In this document: piece by piece, positions 15,027 through 27,237 of the stretch | Layout: every line of letters starts with the position of its first letter | How positions within the stretch are numbered: the first letter of the stretch is position 1 | Source of the DNA: Gammaproteobacteria bacterium | Lineage (GTDB): Bacteria > Pseudomonadota > Gammaproteobacteria > SZUA-229 | Length of the DNA: 64,000 nt | Direction of reading: 5' to 3' | Assembly (NCBI GenBank): GCA_026195895.1 | Contig: JAPHRO010000025.1 | Span: 1-64,000 of the forward strand | The notes under the pieces: generated by a model | What the model saw: the letters and a program-made list of their open reading frames with translations, nothing else | Told to the model about the DNA's origin: nothing | Database searches by the model: none | Made by a program: the position numbers and the translations under genes

Positions 15027-15281
15027 TTAAGCGTCAGTAGCTTTACGTGCCTGCTTGATCAATGTGCCAACACGCTCAGATGTTCCCGCGCCCTGTGACA
15101 CCCAGTGATCAACACGATCCAGGCTTAACTCAAGCTTTTTCTCAGCACCGCGTGCCATAGGATTAAAATACCCTACACGCTCGATGTAACGGCCGTCACG
15201 CGCATTGCGCGAATCAGTTACAACAACATGATAAAAAGGCTTTTTCTTAGCACCGCCACGTGATAAACGAATGGTTACCAT
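15027..15281 (-). CDS. rpsP: 30S ribosomal protein S16
   Basis: S16 is an early-assembly protein of the 30S body. The 84-residue sequence [30 protein letters not shown] is diagnostic. It is the first gene of the rpsP-rimM-trmD-rplS operon, read from the promoter at 15349-15377. Confidence 0.98.
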
Positions 15282-15646: not shown

Positions 15647-16573
15647 CTACTGGTAGTAGTAGTCATATTTTTCCAGAATATCCTTCATGAAAGTCCAGGC
15701 CTCACTGTATGAAAGACCACTGTCTTTAGGTATGACAACTTTGACGTATAGTTTTTTCGGGTGTTTTTTCTTTAAATCTTTCAGCGCCGCATGCAATTGT
15801 TTAGCTGAAACCGTTTTATATTTTTCACCCGCTGTTTTATGTTTGATTCGAATACGTGTTTTGTCGCCCAGCACCTGGTAATACACTTCGACAATGTATT
15901 TACCCCGCGCCGTTCTGGCAGGTTTCACCAGTTTGTCGTACTTGACCTTGAGCTCGCTGTAGTCAGTTTTTAATACGCCCAGTTTCTGTTCCGCTTCCTG
16001 CATTTTGCTACGCAAACCCGCAAGTTCTGTTGTTTGTTCCTGATTGATGTTTTTCACAGAGGCCAGTTGATTTTCTGATTCATTGAGTTCTGCAGTTTTC
16101 TGCTCAAAATCCAGTTGCAGTTTCTGGTAATCCTGCTCAGCCTGTTGTAAATTTTCCTGCAGTTGTTTTTCCCGCTGCTCGGATTCCATTAATGTATTTG
16201 ATAATCGTTGCTGCTCATCCTGCAGCAACATCAAACTTTGTTCCCGGTTAGCCAGTTGTTCCATCATTTCATTGTATTGCTCACTGGCCAGCATCAACTG
16301 GCGATACTGTTCCGACAACTGCGCTTTTGCCTGTTCCAGTTGTTCTTCAAGCGTGGCATTTTCTTCAACGGTGAATTTCAATACTTCGGTAGTTTCACGT
16401 TCGGCTGCTATACTGTTTCGCAACTGCTCAACCAGTTCCCAGTTACGCACAATCAACACCGTCGATGCGAGTAAAAAAATCATCACGATAACCGTCATGA
16501 TGTCAGTAAACGACGGCCAGAAGTTATCGTTATTTTCATGGGCAGCACGCAGATCGATGAAATCGAAACTCAT
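15647..16573 (-). CDS. MotB/ExbD/ZorB-like membrane protein with long coiled coil
   Basis: A 308-residue protein with one N-terminal membrane segment (about residues 25-45). It is preceded by WPSFTDIMTV, in which Asp24 matches the proton-carrying Asp of MotB/ExbD/ZorB stator proteins. A long coiled coil follows (about 48-210, rich in E, Q and L). The C-terminal domain (about 215-308, with KLYVKVVIPKDSGLSYSEAWTFMKDIL) recalls the ExbD/TolR fold rather than an OmpA peptidoglycan-binding domain. Its ATG overlaps the stop of the MotA/ExbB-like gene (ATGA), so the two form a pair. The role is unknown; candidates are energy transduction to the envelope or phage defence. Confidence 0.7.
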   Translation of the reverse strand: MSFDFIDLRAAHENNDNFWPSFTDIMTVIVMIFLLASTVLIVRNWELVEQLRNSIAAERETTEVLKFTVEENATLEEQLEQAKAQLSEQYRQLMLASEQYNEMMEQLANREQSLMLLQDEQQRLSNTLMESEQREKQLQENLQQAEQDYQKLQLDFEQKTAELNESENQLASVKNINQEQTTELAGLRSKMQEAEQKLGVLKTDYSELKVKYDKLVKPARTARGKYIVEVYYQVLGDKTRIRIKHKTAGEKYKTVSAKQLHAALKDLKKKHPKKLYVKVVIPKDSGLSYSEAWTFMKDILEKYDYYYQ

Positions 16574-17484
16574 GGTAAGCGAAAGCCTTCACGGAGTAGC
16601 TGACGAACTTCTGCCATTGCGCTGGAGATAGAGGACAATTGCTCATTACTTGATTCAGTCATATCACGCAGATTGGCTCCAGCAGCGGCAAAATTATCCT
16701 GGGTAGCTTTCATTGCCTCCGCCGCCAGGCGAAGTTCTTTAACCAGTTGCCCCACTTCATGCAACATACTGTCTGTCTGGTAAGTGTATTTGGGCAAAAT
16801 ATAAACACTGGTTACCTGCTCCACACCGCTGATCAGCTGTGTTTGTACGTCAGCTAGTTTTAAATAAAAATAACCATAAAAAATATAACAGACAATTGCC
16901 GTTGTGGTGGTCGACAATGCGGTGGACATGCCATGAATCACCACCCCCATGCCATTAATACCTTCTGCTGCTCCCAGAATATTCGATGCACCGAGCAGGG
17001 CAATAGATAAAGAAACGATGGTACCAAACACACCGGTTAGTATAAGAATATTGCTAATAAATTTTGGCAAACTGATACGCGTACTTTCAGTTGCTACCGT
17101 GGTTGATGCCAGCGCGCCATGATTCACCGCAACATTTTGCATACTGATCGCGACAATCGTTTTATAACGATTAAAAATAATTGATTTGGGGCTAACGCCT
17201 TCGACGGGCTTTGCCTGTTCAGCTTCAACATTTTCTATGAAGCGCGCCAACGAAGATTCTTCCCGCATATATCGAAACAACAACATAATCAGTTTCGACA
17301 AACCGAGAAAAAACAGAATTAAAATACCGCCGTTGACCAGATAGCCGGTACGCGTTATTTGATTTTTAAAATAGATATCGATGATGTAGTCGGTGTTGGC
17401 CGCCAGCGCAAAAAACAGCAGGCCAAAAGAAATTATCAGGTGCACAAAAATACGACGGCTATAATTAGCTCGAAACTGGATCAT
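16570..17484 (-). CDS. MotA/TolQ/ExbB-family proton channel protein
   Basis: A 304-residue membrane protein with two N-terminal hydrophobic segments (about 10-30 and 45-68), a cytoplasmic loop, and two more (about 145-170 and 185-215). The last pair, ILTGVFGTIVSLSIALLGAS and GVVIHGMSTALSTTTTAIVCYIFYGYFYL, is the MotA/TolQ/ExbB channel signature with its conserved glycines and threonines. The C-terminal tail is helical. It is translationally coupled to the MotB/ExbD-like gene and lies 81 bases after ffh. No tonB, flagellar or tol genes are nearby, so its motor partner is not known. Confidence 0.75.
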   Translation of the reverse strand: MIQFRANYSRRIFVHLIISFGLLFFALAANTDYIIDIYFKNQITRTGYLVNGGILILFFLGLSKLIMLLFRYMREESSLARFIENVEAEQAKPVEGVSPKSIIFNRYKTIVAISMQNVAVNHGALASTTVATESTRISLPKFISNILILTGVFGTIVSLSIALLGASNILGAAEGINGMGVVIHGMSTALSTTTTAIVCYIFYGYFYLKLADVQTQLISGVEQVTSVYILPKYTYQTDSMLHEVGQLVKELRLAAEAMKATQDNFAAAGANLRDMTESSNEQLSSISSAMAEVRQLLREGFRLP

Positions 17485-17565: not shown

Positions 17566-18939
17566 CTAGAAACCCATTCCACCTGGACCACCGCCCATCG
17601 GCAGCTTACCCTTCAGCCCACGCATCATTTTTGCCATGCCGCCCTTGGCCATTTTTTTCATCATTTTACTCATCTGTTTTTGTTGCTTCATCAGGCGATT
17701 GACGTCCTGCACCTGCACGCCGGCACCGAGAGCAATACGCCGTTTTCGCGAACCCTTGATCACATCCGGAAAAGCTCGCTCCTGCGGCGTCATCGACTGG
17801 ATAATAGCCACCAGACGTTTCACATCCTTGTCATTGACCTTGTCTTTTACATTCGCCGGCAGATCCCCCATACCCGGTAACTTGTCCATCAAGCTACCCA
17901 GGCCACCCATGTTCATCATTTGCTCCATCTGATCTTTCAGATCATTGAAATCAAATGACTTGCCTTTCTTGAATTTGGTCGCCAGTTTTTCTGCTTTAAC
18001 TTTATCGACGCTGCGCTCAGCTTCTTCCACCAGACTGAGCACATCCCCCATGCCCAGAATACGCGAGGCCAGACGATCAGGATAAAACGGTTCCAGCGCA
18101 TCGACTTTTTCACCCGCCCCCAGAAACTTGATTGGCTTGCCGGTGATATGACGAATCGATAAGGCCGCACCGCCGCGGGCATCGCCATCGGTTTTGGTCA
18201 GCACAACACCGGTTAATTCCAGACTGTCATTGAACGCTTTGGCCGTATTCGCCGCATCCTGGCCGGTCATGCTATCGACCACAAACAGGGTTTCTACCGG
18301 ATTAATCGCACTGTGGATTTTCTGGATTTCACCCATCATGTCGGCATCGATGTGCAAACGGCCCGCTGTATCCACCAGCAGCACGTCCTGGAACTGTCGT
18401 TTGGCCGCATCGATGGCTGCCCTGGCAATATCGACCGGATCCTGCTCTTTTTCACTGGGGAAGAATTCGGCACCGACCTGATTAGCCAGCGTTTCCAGCT
18501 GTTTGATAGCCGCCGGGCGATAGACGTCACAGCTCACCACCATGACTTTTTTATTGTGTCGATCCTTGAGCAACTTGGCCAGCTTGGCCACCGTGGTGGT
18601 TTTACCTGCGCCCTGCAAACCCGCCATCAACACAACTGCAGGCGGCTGCGCACTCAGATCAAGTTCTTCGTTGGCCGCCCCCATGGTTTCGACCAGCTCT
18701 TCATCCACCACCTTGATCAGCGCCTGGCCGGGTGACAGACTGGTCATCACCTCTTTGCCAATAGCTCGCTGTTTTACGCGATCAACAAAATCCCGCACCA
18801 CCGGTAAAGCCACATCGGCTTCCAGCAGGGCCATCCGCACATCGCGCATAGTGTCTTTGATATTGTCTTCGGTCAGTCTGCCCTGACCGCGCAGGTTTTT
18901 AATCGTCCTGGATAGACGATCGCTTAAGCTATCGAACAT
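17566..18939 (-). CDS. ffh: signal recognition particle protein Ffh
   Basis: Ffh is the GTPase that with 4.5S RNA targets ribosomes to the membrane. The 457-residue protein has the N domain, the G domain (GLQGAGKTTTVAKLA, DTAGRL and TKTDGDARGGAALS) and a Met-rich M domain near the C-terminus (QKQMSKMMKKMAKGGMAKMMRG). A 7-bp inverted repeat (ctagata/tatctag, 17545-17569) overlaps the stop codon. A possible -10 box TATAAT lies on the minus strand at 18981-18976, about 40 bases upstream. Confidence 0.98.
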   Translation of the reverse strand: MFDSLSDRLSRTIKNLRGQGRLTEDNIKDTMRDVRMALLEADVALPVVRDFVDRVKQRAIGKEVMTSLSPGQALIKVVDEELVETMGAANEELDLSAQPPAVVLMAGLQGAGKTTTVAKLAKLLKDRHNKKVMVVSCDVYRPAAIKQLETLANQVGAEFFPSEKEQDPVDIARAAIDAAKRQFQDVLLVDTAGRLHIDADMMGEIQKIHSAINPVETLFVVDSMTGQDAANTAKAFNDSLELTGVVLTKTDGDARGGAALSIRHITGKPIKFLGAGEKVDALEPFYPDRLASRILGMGDVLSLVEEAERSVDKVKAEKLATKFKKGKSFDFNDLKDQMEQMMNMGGLGSLMDKLPGMGDLPANVKDKVNDKDVKRLVAIIQSMTPQERAFPDVIKGSRKRRIALGAGVQVQDVNRLMKQQKQMSKMMKKMAKGGMAKMMRGLKGKLPMGGGPGGMGF

Positions 18940-23608: not shown

Positions 23609-23669
23609 CAATAACTTATCTCTAAAACGCTAAAATAACCAATATTGTTCGGTCATGTCGCACACCATC

Positions 23670-26600
23670 CGGTTCATCCCCGCGCATGCGGGGAACACCC
23701 AATCTGACTGATATTACATAACAAATCACCCGGTTCATCCCCGCGCATGCGGGGAACACTATAACATCTGGGCTGTTGCACATGGCGCAGGCGGTTCATC
23801 CCCGCGCATGCGGGGAACACCTTTTTCGCTACTTTTTCGCTACTTTTTCGCTACGGTTCATCCCCGCGCATGCGGGGAACACCAATGCATCTCGGCTGAA
23901 CTGACGGGTCATGCCGGTTCATCCCCGCGCATGCGGGGAACACATAGCCCCTGATGGAACGCTGACAGCGGATGCCGGTTCATCCCCGCGCATGCGGGGA
24001 ACACTATATGTACATAATTGTCCGGAGTGCAGGTTCCGGTTCATCCCCGCGCATGCGGGGAACACGTATTCATGGGGGCTGAGGTAATAGAAAAGCACGG
24101 TTCATCCCCGCGCATGCGGGGAACACTATAAATCTCCCGCGCTGTCATCACGACAGTGCGGTTCATCCCCGCGCATGCGGGGAACACCTAAATCAGCGGT
24201 CGCGGCTGTTTCTGCTATGCGGTTCATCCCCGCGCATGCGGGGAACACATACGGATGTATCTATTAACCAGTTATCGGTACGGTTCATCCCCGCGCATGC
24301 GGGGAACACTTTTCCGGGAAACTTCGAATTAACTCGAATATCGGTTCATCCCCGCGCATGCGGGGAACACCCGTACTCATACCATCAATAGCGCGCGTAA
24401 TTCGGTTCATCCCCGCGCATGCGGGGAACACACGACGTAAATTACCCGTCGAAGCGGTTAACGCGGTTCATCCCCGCGCATGCGGGGAACACGATCGTCT
24501 CCCAGAATGTAACCTCGATTATCGCGGTTCATCCCCGCGCATGCGGGGAACACCAAAATATCTGCGACCTTGGCCGCTTCCGTTGCGGTTCATCCCCGCG
24601 CATGCGGGGAACACTATTTTACGATTATTATTAATGATTTCAATAACGGTTCATCCCCGCGCATGCGGGGAACACACTGGGTGGTATAATATCCGCGCCA
24701 CCGATTGCGGTTCATCCCCGCGCATGCGGGGAACACTAAGCATAGCGTTAAAAGGTGTTGCCGCAATACGGTTCATCCCCGCGCATGCGGGGAACACGAT
24801 GGTATAGTAAGGGCTGATGCAATTAGAAACGGTTCATCCCCGCGCATGCGGGGAACACCCACTGCGAGATAGGTGCGGTAAGCTCTATCCCGGTTCATCC
24901 CCGCGCATGCGGGGAACACTCAACCCGTTTATCGTAAGTGCCTATAAAGTCCGGTTCATCCCCGCGCATGCGGGGAACACAAATCTTCTGTATCTGAAAA
25001 TTATTCAATAAACGGTTCATCCCCGCGCATGCGGGGAACACCACCGGGTACTGAATCAGCCCTCCTTCTCATCCGGTTCATCCCCGCGCATGCGGGGAAC
25101 ACCAAACATCGAATTGCACAGATACATCATGCGCCGGTTCATCCCCGCGCATGCGGGGAACACTACGATATCAGGGTTCCTGATGAATCCTATCCCGGTT
25201 CATCCCCGCGCATGCGGGGAACACAGCTACCTTTTTAGCTCCTGCCATATCGATTTCGGTTCATCCCCGCGCATGCGGGGAACACTCATTACCTTGCACA
25301 GAAAGAGTCGCAATAGGCGGTTCATCCCCGCGCATGCGGGGAACACTTAGCCGCTTTTAGGTCTTCTGCAACCATGTCCGGTTCATCCCCGCGCATGCGG
25401 GGAACACGATCTGTGTCTAAACTAGCCATTATTCGCCTCCGGTTCATCCCCGCGCATGCGGGGAACACTCTGCAAGGCTATCAGGCACACCAGGAAGGTA
25501 CGGTTCATCCCCGCGCATGCGGGGAACACGATGAGAAGCTATACAAGGATGATTTTAATACCGGTTCATCCCCGCGCATGCGGGGAACACGTTTGTTGTT
25601 AGGTCTTTCATTCTTTCATGGCCGGTTCATCCCCGCGCATGCGGGGAACACTTCGGCAGCGGACTCCAGGTATTTTCTGTTGGCGGTTCATCCCCGCGCA
25701 TGCGGGGAACACCCCGTTGCTCATATATCTGACCGGCTCGCATTCGGTTCATCCCCGCGCATGCGGGGAACACTACGATATCAGGGTTCCTGATGAATCC
25801 TATCTCGGTTCATCCCCGCGCATGCGGGGAACACACATGGTGCGCGATACATTTAATGTGACGTATCGGTTCATCCCCGCGCATGCGGGGAACACAACCG
25901 GTTGCGCTGTCTGGGGGTAGAAAATAACGGTTCATCCCCGCGCATGCGGGGAACACGCTGTTAAGCACTCAAGGGCGAGCATACCAAACGGTTCATCCCC
26001 GCGCATGCGGGGAACACACCTATCAGGTGCCCGTCACTAATTGGTGGGACGGTTCATCCCCGCGCATGCGGGGAACACGGCATGTAGTCCCTTCCGATAT
26101 TCGCTAAGCCCGGTTCATCCCCGCGCATGCGGGGAACACAATAGCACGAAAAGATTTAAGATCATCTATCGCGGTTCATCCCCGCGCATGCGGGGAACAC
26201 GTCACGTATCGCATAACTAAATCGTTATAACGCGGTTCATCCCCGCGCATGCGGGGAACACACAGTAATGTAATGCGTGCCACTGGTTGCTGGCGGTTCA
26301 TCCCCGCGCATGCGGGGAACACATGCAAGAAAAGCTGCAACCGCCACAGCCACACGGTTCATCCCCGCGCATGCGGGGAACACACTATAAAAAATATCAT
26401 CTATATTCTCACCAGCGGTTCATCCCCGCGCATGCGGGGAACACATTAACCGATTCATTTTCAGTGGTATCTATTGCGGTTCATCCCCGCGCATGCGGGG
26501 AACACGCCGTAATGCAACGATGCCTGTTTCTCAAACGCGGTTCATCCCCGCGCATGCGGGGAACACTGCCAATTGTTGGATGCATAATCTTTTGCGCGCG

Positions 26601-27237
26601 GTTCATCCCCGCGCATGCGGGGAACACTTCTTTAGTCATGTCTCGTTTTGGTATTGTATCGGTTCATCCCCGCGCATGCGGGGAACACGCTCCTTCAACT
26701 TTTTTTATGCGTTTATCGAACGGTTCATCCCCGCGCATGCGGGGAACACCCAGCCTCTACGAACTTTCCGCCTGGTACACGCGGTTCATCCCCGCGCATG
26801 CGGGGAACACCCCACGAATGAATTTTGCAGGGTTGTTTTTGGCGGTTCATCCCCGCGCATGCGGGGAACACAAAGCCCAGGTCAATTACGCTTTGAATGG
26901 TTGCGGTTCATCCCCGCGCATGCGGGGAACACGTGTGTATTTCATCGGTTACCGAGGCCGATACCGGTTCATCCCCGCGCATGCGGGGAACACTGTTTCC
27001 TCAATCACTTTTGCTAAACTAGCCGCGGTTCATCCCCGCGCATGCGGGGAACACTGGTAGTGGTGACGGTACAGGAGCATTAGTAACGGTTCATCCCCGC
27101 GCATGCGGGGAACACATCACGCTCTAGTAACTTTTGTATCTGGAAGGCGGTTCATCCCCGCGCATGCGGGGAACACGTCCTGTCGTTCCTGTTATATTTT
27201 CTTGTGTCCGGTTCATCCCCGCGCATGCGGGGAACAC
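23670..27237 (-). CRISPR. type I-E CRISPR array, 59 repeats and 58 spacers
   Basis: A 29-base repeat (plus strand starts cggttcatcc and ends ggggaacac, with stem ccccgc/gcgggg) recurs every 61 bases from 23670 to 27209. All copies look identical, including the last at the trailer end. Spacers are 32 bases except spacer 3 (23821-23853), which has 33. In crRNA sense (minus strand) the repeat begins gtgttccccgc, like the E. coli I-E repeat, which places the leader and the newest spacers at the right, next to cas2. Spacers 25164-25195 and 25774-25805 are the same apart from one base. I saw no spacer that matches the rest of the window by eye. Confidence 0.99.

Follow-up and report, generated by a model that had tools for sequence, protein, structure and literature searches.

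A two-gene branch of the MotA/TolQ/ExbB motor superfamily with an unusual coiled-coil shaft

Two overlapping genes, here called A and B, located in the window (the whole analysed stretch of 64,000 nucleotides of a gammaproteobacterial contig), belong to a known motor superfamily, in which they form a branch that is missing from the catalogues and is marked by an unusual shaft. Rather probably, the pair is a motor of the MotA/TolQ/ExbB (5:2) kind that consists of two genes and is so far uncharacterised; its shaft would place TolR-like heads beyond the wall. It is best read as a dedicated machine, probably ion-driven, which drives some target at the outer envelope or anchors it there. The gene pair, its superfamily, the invariant residues, the coiled coil with its heptad register and the lack of a constant third gene are established here, and the fold of the head is given by a model. 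The A-B pair also adds a motor family absent from the catalogues, which is frequent in certain environmental proteobacteria.

The gene pair, its occurrence and its surroundings

The pair and the adjoining genes are arranged in the window as follows.

17566-18939, minus strand (the same direction as A, B and rpsP): ffh
16570..17484, minus strand: gene A, 304 aa, channel subunit of the MotA/TolQ/ExbB superfamily
16570..16573, minus strand: ATGA overlap between the stop codon of A and the start codon of B
15647..16573, minus strand: gene B, 308 aa, membrane helix, coiled coil and TolR/ExbD-like C-terminal domain
16493..16522, minus strand: codons of FWPSFTDIMT, B residues 18-27, including Asp24 (presumed ion-binding)
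15926..16441, minus strand: coiled coil of B, about residues 45-216
15656..15901, minus strand: TolR/ExbD-like head of B, residues 225-306
15027-15281, minus strand (the same direction as A, B and ffh): rpsP

The initial annotation had placed a pair of coupled genes between ffh and rpsP, and both open reading frames are present there on the minus strand, with the ATGA overlap likely coupling their translation. The genes rplS, trmD and rimM lie beyond rpsP, and a gene for an MBL-fold hydrolase on the ffh side (all named from their sequences); among the immediate neighbours in the window there are no flagellar, ton, tol, gld or zor genes, as had also been stated. The observation of the pair was confirmed as real and far beyond chance, since orthologues of A with 43-63% identity in the alignment were found in 49 other loci, and B adjoins A in 85 of the 90 loci, several of the other five being cut by contig ends.

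Gene A is present in 27 of the 54 genomes of a same-order sample (11 of the 22 near-complete ones), in 55 of 369 genomes of the class sample (E < 1e-40), and in a different class, where 27 genomes of two families carry it (E < 1e-80); no copy of the pair occurred in the plasmid and phage records searched. Thus, the pair is widespread but dispensable. One bacterial-looking copy belongs to a record titled Halobacteria archaeon (L007), which is probably a mis-binned contig.

The neighbourhood survey that had been proposed for the pair, when extended over 90 loci, revealed only A and B as constant, with no conserved third gene: any other gene family recurred in at most 9 of the 90 loci and was mostly lineage-bound. 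The housekeeping site, which the initial annotation had taken for conserved, did not hold, as the ffh and rpsP neighbours did not recur at any of the 89 further loci, the insertion is seen in the window genome only, and the location of the pair varies between lineages. Therefore, with neither a constant third gene nor a shared site, A and B make up a free-standing two-gene unit outside any conserved operon.

Two candidate partners were considered and rejected. A gene of the MlaC family is found at 8 loci of three families, but its position differs: in two families it lies immediately upstream, whereas in the window's own family it is found downstream of the pair, at a distance of a few genes. 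Its examples are the following.

L072:9013-9777: MlaC-family gene near the pair (PF05494)
L084:8974-9615: MlaC-family gene near the pair
L063:11305-11970: MlaC-family gene near the pair

The genes of a 2OG-oxygenase and of a small secreted protein stand beside the pair in close relatives only, and in the window's genome both are located on other contigs.

Architecture of the two proteins

At E < 0.1, 49 of 50 A proteins matched the profile PF01618 (MotA_ExbB), with a lowest value of 8e-6, the A protein of the window alone reaching 11.2 bits against a cut-off of 22.9; no Pfam or NCBIfam model claims the A or B protein of the window above its cut-off, and the PADLOC matches to the pair are weak. 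The structures of A and B were modelled as single chains. The model of A (mean pLDDT 85) contains four predicted membrane helices, the helices as a whole extending over residues 8-29, 31-40, 46-87, 102-115, 122-171, 176-233 and 237-300. Its best structural matches are ExbB/TolQ, with Z 13.1-13.9 and rmsd 3.3-4.2 over ~200 residues, a Z of ~13.9 being near the level that helical bundles may reach by chance; the Z-scores are about 11 with ZorA and about 10 with MotA/PomA, and these families together occupy the top 18 places. By its fold and the PF01618 profile, A is a channel subunit of the MotA/TolQ/ExbB superfamily, in agreement with its earlier description as a MotA/ExbB-type channel protein.

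TM2 and TM3 are joined by a short loop, cytoplasmic in the model (about residues 88-121, with one helix). The threonines T155 (in GVFGT) and T192/T193 (in ALSTT) are invariant among the aligned orthologues and, when A is aligned with ExbB, fall on its GTV and TT motifs. The C-terminal cytoplasmic helix 237-300, of 64 residues, carries the conserved GFRLP motif at its end; GFRL is terminal in about nine-tenths of 97 distinct A proteins, and the spacing from the end of TM4 to GFRL amounts to 72 residues in 27 of the 30 proteins measured and to 86 in two. Such a tail end is probably read by some cytoplasmic partner or by other A tails.

The B protein carries ...NDNFWPSFTDIMTVIVMIFLLAS... with the Asp at position 24. 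The claim of a one-helix partner with a MotB-type Asp had been accompanied by a test set beforehand, the conservation of this residue, and Asp24 proved to be invariant in all 47 aligned B orthologues; the invariant membrane Asp of B and channel Thr of A are features of the superfamily. The model of B shows an unbroken helix 22-215, with ~172 residues past the membrane segment (about 160 coiled-coil residues had been claimed), and a C-terminal domain 224-306. In profile comparisons, the N-terminus of B resembles MotB, ZorB and TolR, and profile searches of the PDB with the alignments A1 and A2 returned mostly unrelated coiled coils, the informative matches being the MotB-like N-terminal chains 8vvn and 8vvi. 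The best structural match of the head is TolR 2jwk (Z 8.0, 73 residues, 2.4 A), with Z 6.7 for ExbD, and the five top entries of the VIA list are all TolR/ExbD, with Z from 8.0 to 5.9, so that the head is a TolR-type periplasmic domain, consistent with the ExbD-like end described initially. An OmpA-like match is absent from the same list, such absence being no proof. The integrase-core identity suggested for B by Foldseek was rejected, as its matches are weak and not meaningful, and the VIA list ranks TolR/ExbD first.

The length of the coil, taken from the membrane helix to the KPAR motif, equals 172 residues in the B protein of the window and ranges from 151 to 361 in 70 distinct orthologues, 63 of which have lengths congruent to 4 modulo 7. 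By parsimony on the tree of A (69 loci), 30 changes of coil length were reconstructed, including 23 multiples of 7, six of 7k+4, which is the known stutter step of coiled coils, and one of 7k+1. The share of multiples of 7 (23 of 30 against an expected 1/7) corresponds to a binomial P of about 3e-14, which is approximate, because the events come from one reconstruction. In the controls, multiples of 7 accounted for none of the 26 length changes in the N-terminal segment of B and none of the 9 in its head. The hydrophobic periodicity of the coil has a sharp peak at 3.50. Hence, the heptad length steps together with this period mark the segment as a true coiled coil in which selection maintains the register between membrane and head, as expected for a stiff shaft.

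With the textbook coiled-coil rise of 0.1485 nm per residue, the coil would extend over 22 nm or more across the orthologues, the value for the B protein of the window being 25.5 nm. In four orthologues, the coil reaches 277-361 residues (41-54 nm if straight), which exceeds a normal periplasm, and therefore the rod is not always straight from membrane to membrane. The distance from the inner membrane to the peptidoglycan is about 9 nm (PMC4646322). In one locus (L151, G518:C87:6824-7708), the reading frame of the A homologue includes a TAG codon, and the coil of the accompanying B protein, of 159 residues, is the only one to deviate from the heptad rule by a single residue; the pair is possibly decaying there, or sequencing errors are involved.

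Relation to known motors of the superfamily

Seven other PF01618 genes are encoded in the window's genome, and their sets, named from sequence and gene order, are TolQRA, ExbBD by msbA, MotAB, PomAB, ExbBD with TonB, and two of ExbB-ExbD-ExbD. Since these are seven separate motor sets, the A-B pair is an eighth motor and no replacement for Tol or Ton. In the same genome, an ExbB-like gene is accompanied at each of the loci L122 and L124 by two ExbD-like genes that differ from each other, and a TonB-like gene is found near the L122 set and a TPR gene near the L124 set.

The profile search proposed for placing the pair found no characterised TolQR/ExbBD model that claims it, and, with no such neighbours and no constant third gene, its locus is not a Zorya, Tol, Ton or flagellar one, in line with the initial annotation. 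With TolQR/ExbBD, the pair shares the fold of A, nearest to ExbB/TolQ, the TolR/ExbD-like head of B, and the conserved membrane Asp and Thr. However, A has four membrane helices instead of three, 150 or more coiled-coil residues of B separate the helix from the head, and no TolA, TonB or Pal adjoins the pair, the genome having its own TolQRA and TonB-ExbBD elsewhere. Neither the tolA, tolB and pal genes of a Tol-Pal operon nor a TonB gene alongside, as in Ton, recur as a third gene in the 90 loci.

Like MotAB/PomAB, the pair consists of two genes, with four membrane helices in A and the Asp in the B helix, but A leaves no room for the torque-generating domain between TM2 and TM3, the structural matches of the B head are to TolR/ExbD, with no OmpA-like one in the list, and there is no flagellar link. 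The motor core, the MotB-like Asp helix and the cytoplasmic extension of the A subunit are shared with ZorAB, whereas the peptidoglycan-binding domain of ZorB is Pal-like, a long coil is lacking there, and the tail of ZorA is much longer. The Zor models of NCBIfam stay below their cut-offs (ZorB1, 22.6 bits vs 400; ZorA_3, 14 bits vs 250), the ZorA search of the class gave two weak matches only, and there is no zorC, zorD or zorE beside the pair in the window. With GldLM/PorLM, the pair would have in common a periplasmic dimeric shaft on a 5:2 motor, the GldM shaft being 18 nm long (PMC9389320); however, the latter consists of four folded domains and no single coiled coil, and its genes stand in a gliding/T9SS context.

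The nearest relatives of A outside the family (L109-L114, L117) show 22-29% identity and an hhalign probability of 98.1%. These loci combine a tolQ-like gene with a membrane-anchored vWA-like DxSGS protein, which has a membrane Asp and no Pfam match, and they have no tolR; apparently, they are the tolQ-vWA pairs that form the second family in PMC12204202, where such pairs were described as uncharacterised. The two-gene layout without tolR/exbD and the membrane Asp of the B partner are alike in both groups, but the B protein of the tolQ-vWA pairs ends in the vWA-like DxSGS domain after a short coil and has no TolR-like head, and the DxSGS motif is absent from the B protein of the window, which is thus not of the vWA kind. 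A third kind of set, kept in two genomes (L115:7974-9849, L116:7776-9572), joins a tolQ-like gene with a one-helix Asp protein of 200-208 aa and a membrane protein of 166-172 aa, the partners in L115 having no Pfam match. An mBio survey of 2025 assigns all the non-flagellar relatives to a 'generic ion transporter' group, which is heterogeneous and includes many unknowns (PMC12505986). No paper on the A-B pair was found among the open-access papers that the search covered.

Proposed mechanism and its alternatives

For the A-B pair, we infer the 5:2 stoichiometry, the ion flow, the rotation, the reach to the outer membrane and a target. Five A subunits would surround a B dimer in the inner membrane as a channel ring, and ions passing between Asp24 of B and the threonine ring of A (T155, T192/T193) would make the ring and the axle turn relative to one another. 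The axle would be prolonged by a parallel coiled-coil dimer of 150 or more residues (25 nm in the B protein of the window), carrying the paired TolR-like heads through the wall; as the coil is longer than the distance to the peptidoglycan, the heads would reach the outer-membrane side, where a partner encoded elsewhere in the genome may receive torque or pull from them or anchor them. Within this scheme, a continuous register-locked drive shaft that crosses the peptidoglycan and passes its rotation straight on to the outer membrane, with no separate transducer, is conceivable, though somewhat doubtful. To our knowledge, the rotation of non-flagellar 5:2 motors has been deduced and not observed, and there is debate on the transfer of force across the envelope. 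For both questions, a motor of two genes with a coiled-coil shaft varying mostly by seven residues is a natural test.

TolR heads can bind peptidoglycan, and B might therefore be an anchor only. A ZorAB-like anchored motor, in which the B heads grip the wall or a partner in the outer membrane, the A ring turns, and the GFRLP tails act on a cytoplasmic partner, is a tentative and rather unlikely alternative: it agrees with the 64-residue tail of A with its nearly constant terminus and spacing, with the weak ZorA/ZorB profile matches, and with the precedent of ZorAB, where the ZorA tail is cytoplasmic and bundled and ZorB binds peptidoglycan (PMC11890865), but no gene of a cytoplasmic partner is constant in the 90 loci, and the coil far exceeds the reach to the wall. 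It appears quite improbable that the pair is a motor of the TolQR/ExbBD type using a separate TonB/TolA-like transducer from elsewhere in the genome, with the coil as a mere spacer. The TolR/ExbD-like head of B, the ExbB/TolQ-like fold of A and the TolA and TonB genes at other loci would suit it; however, a transducer gene is lacking beside the pair in all 90 loci, the TolR and ExbD proteins of the same genome (133-140 aa) have no such coil, and strict seven-residue steps are unexpected for a spacer.

An anti-phage defence motor of an unrecognised Zorya-like system would account for the weak matches to ZorA profiles, which up to 20 of the 50 members show, and for those of ZorB to the B N-terminus, likewise weak, and yet it is very improbable, given no recurrent defence-gene neighbour in the 90 loci, no EH_Signature (ZorC) in the genome, no copy on the plasmid and phage records searched, and NCBIfam Zor cut-offs far from reached. 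An accessory flagellar stator, in spite of the MotB-like WxxFxDxMT motif in B and the presence of FliG and two Mot/Pom pairs in the window's genome, is hardly credible: flagellar use is unlikely, as FliG is absent in 29 of the 55 genomes with the pair (odds ratio 0.79, P = 0.47), and the TolR/ExbD-like head and the short TM2-TM3 loop speak against it as well.

Elsewhere in the window, a CRISPR array is located at 23668-27178, with the 29-base repeat CGGTTCATCCCCGCGCATGCGGGGAACAC and a period of about 61 bases. It apparently consists of two blocks separated by a gap near 26.5-26.8 kb, and its repeat resembles those of type I-E.
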